The notes under the pieces are model-generated. The model had not been told where the DNA came from. It searched no databases and worked only from the letters and a program-made list of their open reading frames with translations. Below, one piece after another: positions 8,385 through 46,066 of a stretch of DNA of 64,000 nucleotides. Position 1 is the stretch's first letter. Each line of letters begins with the position of its first letter. The translations under genes were made by a program, and so were the position numbers. The stretch is from an uncultured Bacteroidaceae bacterium (GTDB lineage: Bacteria > Bacteroidota > Bacteroidia > Bacteroidales > Bacteroidaceae), in the NCBI GenBank assembly GCA_905236065.1, contig CAJONZ010000071.1, forward strand, positions 44,587-108,586, given 5' to 3'.

Positions 8385-8428
8385 CACGCTGGGCTGTTCA
8401 CATCTTCACGCTGAACTGTCCAAAATTA
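8385..8428 (+). repeat. 22-bp-unit intergenic element, copy A (two direct units)
   Basis: CACGCTGGGCTGTTCACATCTT CACGCTGAACTGTCCAAAATTA. Confidence 0.65.
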
Positions 8429-8508
8429 TTCTCGGCGAGAATAAAAAATATATCGACGCCATATTTAATATTCTCGACGAGAATAAAAGATATATCGCCG
8501 AGAATATT
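8428..8508. repeat. paired palindromic sites in 28-bp direct repeat, 42-bp spacing
   Basis: ATTCTCGGCGAGAATAAAAAATATATCG (8428-8455) and ATTCTCGACGAGAATAAAAGATATATCG (8470-8497), then CGCCGAGAATATT. Confidence 0.75.
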
Positions 8509-8636
8509 TTCTTTCACTTCGGCGTGAGGAAATGTTTAGAGCTTTGTGGGGAAAAATTCAGGTTTTTGGGGAGGAAAGGGTGGGGGTGTGTGCCTTAAAA
8601 AAATGTAATAAATTTGTTTTTTCGTGGAGTTATGCG

Positions 8637-24957: not shown

Positions 24958-25067
24958 CACGCAGAACTCTATCGGAGATCACGCAGAACTCTTCTCGACT
25001 TCACGCAGAACTGTATTCGTTTGTAGAGTTCTTCTTCATCGCGGCTTCAGTTCGCCGTGAAATCCAC
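24958..25067. repeat. 22-bp-unit intergenic element, copy B (3 direct + 2 inverted units)
   Basis: CACGCAGAACTCTATCGGAGAT CACGCAGAACTCTTCTCGACTT CACGCAGAACTGTATTCGTTTG TAGAGTTCTTCTTCATCGCGGC TTCAGTTCGCCGTGAAATCCAC. Confidence 0.8.
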
Positions 25068-45956: not shown

Positions 45957-46066
45957 GACGCAGAACTCTATCGGAGATGACGCAGTACTCTACAAAAGAT
46001 GACGCTGAACTGTATTCGTTTCTACAGTTCAGCGTCATTTTCGATGCAGTTCAGCGTCGTTTTCGG
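45957..46066. repeat. 22-bp-unit intergenic element, copy C (3 direct + 2 inverted units, 110 bp)
   Basis: GACGCAGAACTCTATCGGAGAT GACGCAGTACTCTACAAAAGAT GACGCTGAACTGTATTCGTTTC TACAGTTCAGCGTCATTTTCGA TGCAGTTCAGCGTCGTTTTCGG. Confidence 0.88.

Follow-up and report, generated by a model that had tools for sequence, protein, structure and literature searches.

What is an intergenic element of 110 bp that consists of exactly five 22-bp units, three direct and two inverted, and is it read as RNA, moved as a repeat or bound by protein? The element lies at positions 45957-46066 of the window (the whole 64,000-nt stretch of DNA that was analyzed, from the genome of an uncultured Bacteroidaceae bacterium). 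It is one instance of a genus-wide class of helically phased arrays, and its family in the host genome probably represents REP/MITE-like dispersed operator arrays for a putative oligomerizing DNA-binding protein. The units of the element, and the two related elements of the window, are as follows:

45957..45978, plus strand: unit 1, direct, GACGCAGAACTCTA then the 8-bp spacer TCGGAGAT
45979..46000, plus strand: unit 2, direct, GACGCAGTACTCTA then CAAAAGAT
46001..46022, plus strand: unit 3, direct, the left dyad arm, GACGCTGAACTGTA then the central 8-bp spacer TTCGTTTC
46023..46044, minus strand: unit 4, inverted, the right dyad arm, TACAGTTCAGCGTC then spacer
46045..46066, minus strand: unit 5, inverted and weaker, TGCAGTTCAGCGTC then spacer
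24958..25059, plus strand: second family member of the window, three direct units with degenerate inverted units at 25024 and 25046
8385..8420, plus strand: probable degenerate remnant, two direct units at a 22-bp step, weak enough to be a chance occurrence

The five units given in the preliminary description fill 45957-46066 and match letter for letter, and the arms at 46001-46014 and 46023-46036 are indeed perfect reverse complements with 8 nt between them, a perfect dyad that is a peculiarity of this copy and not the family norm. The upstream gene was correctly taken to be SusD-like (PF07980, E 3e-8), and its stop codon is about 27 bp from the element. A scan for sigma-70-like promoters, which does not cover those of Bacteroidetes, gave none between the element and the gene that follows, and Rfam at gathering thresholds returned only tRNAs in the window, the array having no match to a known structured RNA family. 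Eleven matches to the unit (two mismatches or fewer) occur in the window compared to 2.35 expected, a number reached in none of 100 shuffles. The element at 24958, described previously as related, is a full relative that shares the lattice, while the relationship claimed for 8385 stands for the two direct units at 22 bp but is reduced to that of a weak remnant. Directly after this remnant (8428-8515) there are two to three more palindromes, ATTCTCG[GA]CGAGAAT, with AT-rich stretches between them. The inverted unit ACAGTTCAG fits the LytTR consensus; LytTR-type sites were considered and rejected, as the window element gives just two matches (units 3 and 4), and the other units break the consensus.

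Genome-wide, there are 236 exact copies of the unit ACGCWGAACTST and 105 tandem pairs, with none for a reversed-pattern control. A profile built from 77 copies found 86 matches in the 2.73-Mb host genome, each at E 3e-11 or better, bearing out the expectation of a repeat family with further copies, and no matches in 44 congeneric genomes. A looser tandem-pair pattern gave 200 pairs in the host genome, whereas 399 further genomes of the taxonomic family had none, and a GTDB-wide scan of 85,488 species produced eight isolated single matches, all in unrelated phyla. Plasmid, phage and viral-contig collections, from which records very near the host genome were possibly left out, gave no match. The copies studied number 81 (DNA around 79 family loci, plus the two copies in the window); the genomes compared are drafts, and genes were called with a simple home-made caller.

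A position-weight scan with no spacing rule placed all detected units of the 81 arrays on a 22-bp lattice, and the register is kept in every copy; the preliminary description had made its family interpretation depend on this register being kept elsewhere. Most often an array has three direct units and a single inverted one, while some copies have two of each or five units in total. When copies are averaged, the lattice runs on in both directions: a fourth direct unit is weakly present, and inverted units two and three become progressively weaker but stay on the lattice (family-wide z of 20 and 10, respectively). Because the averaged lattice extends to these weak outer units, a complete array has a layout of roughly 3+3 and is strong at the center and to the left of it. 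Gapless alignment of 77 copies is possible over 110 columns, with a mean pairwise identity of 80% in the 80-bp core, and the spacer TCGGAGAT that follows unit 1 recurs in most copies. Array edges are AAAAT/ATTTT-like, and the flanks otherwise carry only decaying weak units. At two loci (L093:2878-2980 and L078:2870-2960), locus-specific extra 22-bp units (TTCTTAACCGTTG..TCCG and CTCCTTCTCCACCG, respectively) adjoin the canonical array and keep its phase, as would be seen if arrays were extended locally by 22 bp at a time.

The changes found inside units differ in kind from those found between them. Within units, 273 of 324 changes (84%) are strand swaps (A/T or C/G) and 20 are transitions, whereas the three core spacers have 237 transitions among 444 changes and keep the base-pair type in 32%. 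The copies were first collected by patterns that need intact units, so that apparent unit conservation is inflated, a point against the operator-array reading; unit 4, which was mostly spared this bias, shows the same pattern anyway (66 of 81 changes are strand swaps, two are transitions). Both the spacing of the arrays and their base-pair identity are constrained, and the lack of any indel in 77 copies, together with the contrast in substitutions between units and spacers, argues for selection on sequence and spacing. If indels are rare, however, common ancestry without function would likewise leave copies alike in sequence and register.

The preliminary description had proposed a search of relatives for the unit: its sequence is absent in all those searched, but the architecture is present with other units. 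A period search of 1.13 Mb from 29 other congeneric species (three consecutive similar units, periods of 16-40, low-complexity filter) detected 13 arrays at 22 bp, 23 at 23 bp and four each at 21 and 24 bp, with none at any other period not divisible by three. All 36 arrays of 22-23 bp are intergenic, while those with periods of 18, 27, 33 and 36 bp are coding, with one exception. As a control, five second-order Markov replicates of a first 0.82-Mb subset were searched with the threshold relaxed slightly; together they contained six arrays with periods of 17-28, including one at 22 bp. The density in the congeneric sample is one array per 31 kb, compared to one per 32-34 kb for the window family in its own genome. 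A 240-kb sample of other families of the order contained three arrays at 22-23 bp, too small a number for placing the boundary of the class. The occurrence of arrays of the same design with other units in related species suggests a dispersed family of putative protein-binding arrays.

Units vary by species, and many are palindromic, 12-17 bp long. Only G004 and G063 have the motif TGGTAA-N4-TTACCA at 22 bp, GGAGGAYT-NN-AGTCCTYC is found mainly in G023, and GGTSTGASTCASACC is abundant in G068 and G036. In 20 sampled regions that carry the palindromic GGTSTGASTCASACC unit, G036 and G068 have steps of 24 bp without exception, and G032 has steps of 23 bp with one exception. Convergent arrays of other units with AAAAT/ATTTT-like edges occur at L222:591 (3+1) and L236:6097 (2+1), and a convergent array at L156:2355 has one direct and three inverted units. 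In G036 and G068, the inverted edges CTTCCA-NNN-CCTCAAAAWC and GWTTTTGAGG-NNN-TGGAAG bound three-unit arrays (L239-L252), one sub-lineage of which reaches on to GTACAAAATGACC ends. Two loci of G004 are also worth recording. At L174:7558, the 22-mer TGTGACAACAGTCCCGATGCTT is present in five perfect copies between convergent genes, suggesting that it expanded recently by exactly 22 bp. At L143:5570-5741, GCACAGTTCTCCC units form a convergent 4+3 array with a 22-bp period, and a Y1 transposase lies about 450 bp away; the core of this unit, AGTTCT, resembles the unit of the window, and the unit is almost absent elsewhere in the 215-kb sample of G004.

The spread of the family within the host genome can be followed in 130 pairs of copies whose cores are 92.5% identical or more. 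Left-flank identity is at background (0.25) within about 10 bp, and right-flank identity reaches the 25% background within about 20-30 bp, with only scattered weak-unit positions alike. Because identity drops to background beside near-identical cores, copies share the array and not its surroundings, and dispersal of the family is well supported; some sub-lineages have longer flanks in common, as expected for copying. The REP/MITE-like dispersal offered earlier as an alternative is also upheld, and is compatible with protein binding. Not one of the 81 copies is inside a gene, though 76% of the sampled DNA is coding. These precise edges in unrelated flanks, the strictly intergenic placement, the sub-lineages with longer flanks and the likeness to BrickBuilt of Porphyromonas gingivalis (23-nt repeats in 19 intergenic MITEs, PMC4596501) could all be explained by a selfish or neutral MITE or minisatellite of that kind, moved by some transposase, serving no host function and inheriting its register from a founder. 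We consider this explanation rather unlikely, although it is the strongest of the alternatives. Selection is implied by the 77 gapless copies at 80% mean identity and by the substitution contrast between units and spacers, and independent unit families all hold 21-24 bp. Direct repeats of 2-8 bp, as expected for target-site duplication, are not in excess at the flanks for any boundary offset, and no transposase linked to the family was found; the former counts against a MITE, and both count also against the operator-array reading. A composite transposon was rejected, since neighboring copies on a contig are kilobases apart and none bracket a single gene. For orthologous empty sites, the relatives (about 66-76% DNA identity) gave a match that broke at the element and no clean empty site.

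The inverted units raise a second alternative, a hairpin of RNA or single-stranded DNA that acts as a bidirectional terminator, 3' UTR stabilizer or cruciform. The window copy folds strongly (z -7.1), one terminator-like match is present on the minus strand, and copies are found near gene 3' ends (median distance 91 bp, compared to 293 bp for 5' ends) and between convergent genes (26% of copies, whereas such regions make up 10% of the remaining intergenic bases sampled). However, the dyad arms do not covary across copies, pairing being 85.2% versus 85.4% in shuffled arms, and nor do the outer arms. Of 77 copies, 36 have a complementary outermost arm pair in the dyad and 24 a complementary loop-closing pair; in another count of the latter, 25 were complementary, below the 40 expected by chance. 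Mismatches between half-sites are common also in the GGTSTGASTCASACC family of G036, G068 and G032 (complementary in 25 of 60 units versus 32 expected by chance), a T-rich right edge occurs in only about half of the copies, and array orientation shows no bias relative to co-directional genes (16 versus 12). Replication-strand bias is likewise absent (37 of 75 agree with GC skew). The role as a transcribed RNA that the preliminary description had allowed for, or as a hairpin, is therefore improbable, there being neither covariation nor a strand bias relative to genes. Because the arms do not covary and the changes in units swap strands, a reading of double-stranded DNA is preferred to a hairpin; changes that preserve the base pair irrespective of strand would be expected of such a reading, for example via the minor groove.

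A third alternative is that the arrays are REP sequences mobilized by the single RAYT-like Y1 transposase of the host genome (C10:12640-12987), the sole Y1_Tnp gene of the genome being about 0.9 kb from a family copy (L044/L142). At one array per 34 kb, however, such proximity would arise by chance in roughly 6% of cases (an estimate), and Y1_Tnp genes of congeners each have their own, different palindromes. The gene is more closely flanked by another tandem repeat (CGGTTACGGAGCGATGACGC...), and because this flanking repeat is different, a RAYT/REP pair is unlikely for the window family; mobilization by this enzyme is, in our estimate, highly improbable. Beside the gene (L142:4700-5560) are four tandem repeats of about 90 bp with CGGTTACGGAGCGATGACGCTTCCAGCGTC, and an inverted copy of this repeat also lies near it. 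In G061 and G029 (L150 and L152), Y1 transposase genes are flanked by long perfect palindromes, e.g., TGGATAATCAAGGGGTCAGACCCCTTGATTATCCA, which are apart from the 22-bp arrays. Finally, an ordinary transcription-factor regulon with tandem operators upstream of its targets, as the operator-like sites at two-turn spacing might indicate, has hardly any likelihood given the share of copies between convergent genes and away from gene starts, the functionally unrelated neighbors (167 Pfam families over 149 proteins, the most frequent counted three times) and the absence of the sites from every relative searched.

The operator-array reading gives the following picture. The core would be a set of DNA sites in fixed helical register, in which the three direct units point toward one strong inverted unit, followed by up to two weaker ones, at steps of 22 bp that correspond to two helical turns. 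A sequence-specific protein may nucleate at the head-to-head center and oligomerize outward along one face of the DNA, an arrangement that would keep spacing and base-pair identity but not hairpin pairing. Copying into tolerated sites outside genes and promoters would account for the spread of the arrays. One-face protein binding, already suggested in the preliminary description, is the best reading. A role at the ends of transcription units (roadblock or insulator) or in chromosome organization is possible, as is purely selfish maintenance of the arrays. More speculatively, species across the genus might each carry chromosome-wide, phase-locked operator arrays (about 90 per genome by density) with their own units and a fast-evolving partner protein, the step of 22, 23 or 24 bp being set by the geometry of the oligomer. 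If true, bacteria would have a site-and-reader pair whose members are replaced from species to species within a conserved architecture. Intergenic repeats in bacteria are usually explained by hairpins; here, helical phase is the conserved quantity, and the sharp peak at 22-23 bp over 29 species with changing units predicts a specific kind of protein. A non-exhaustive literature search found no earlier description of such a peak and no account of phase-locked arrays in Prevotella or Bacteroides.

Among known systems, cooperative tandem operators (lambda OR-type; 22-bp iterons, e.g., of R6K) have short sites at two-turn spacing, in some cases including an inverted pair, to which proteins bind along one face of the DNA; each is a single control locus next to the gene of its own regulator or initiator. 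The arrays likewise repeat short sites at a fixed two-turn spacing, but are dispersed over the chromosome with no linked regulator and, unlike plasmid or phage iterons, were not found in the plasmid and phage collections searched. Nor do they resemble the pattern of a regulon, as they do not mark promoters of functionally related genes and their neighbors share no common function. With MITEs in general they share a common core in unrelated flanks, seen in the 130 pairs, and differ in having no target-site duplication. REP, REPIN and BIME elements with RAYT transposases (PMC2817692, PMC3116915) are similarly short, dispersed, high-copy intergenic repeats, direct and inverted, that avoid genes. 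REPs are 20-40 bp hairpins tied to RAYT, whereas in the arrays pairing is not selected, palindromes are not maintained by it, spacing is fixed at two turns, and the Y1 transposase of the host genome is flanked by other repeats. The closest described element is BrickBuilt of P. gingivalis, with 23-nt tandem units in 19 intergenic MITEs, in a paper that does not mention palindromes or helical phasing (PMC4596501). It comes from the same bacterial order (if the host is Prevotella, the genus named in the preliminary description), and like the arrays is dispersed, strictly intergenic, nearly species-restricted and composed of imperfect tandem units of about 23 bp, each with a conserved first part and a variable second part. 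BrickBuilt has 1-23 direct units, none inverted, with 0-6% indels, and is bounded by 'leader' and 'tail' segments and IS5-like terminal repeats (GAGACCTTTGCA) (PMC4596501); the arrays have 4-6 convergent units, no indels and no such ends, and are present in about 86 copies compared to 19.
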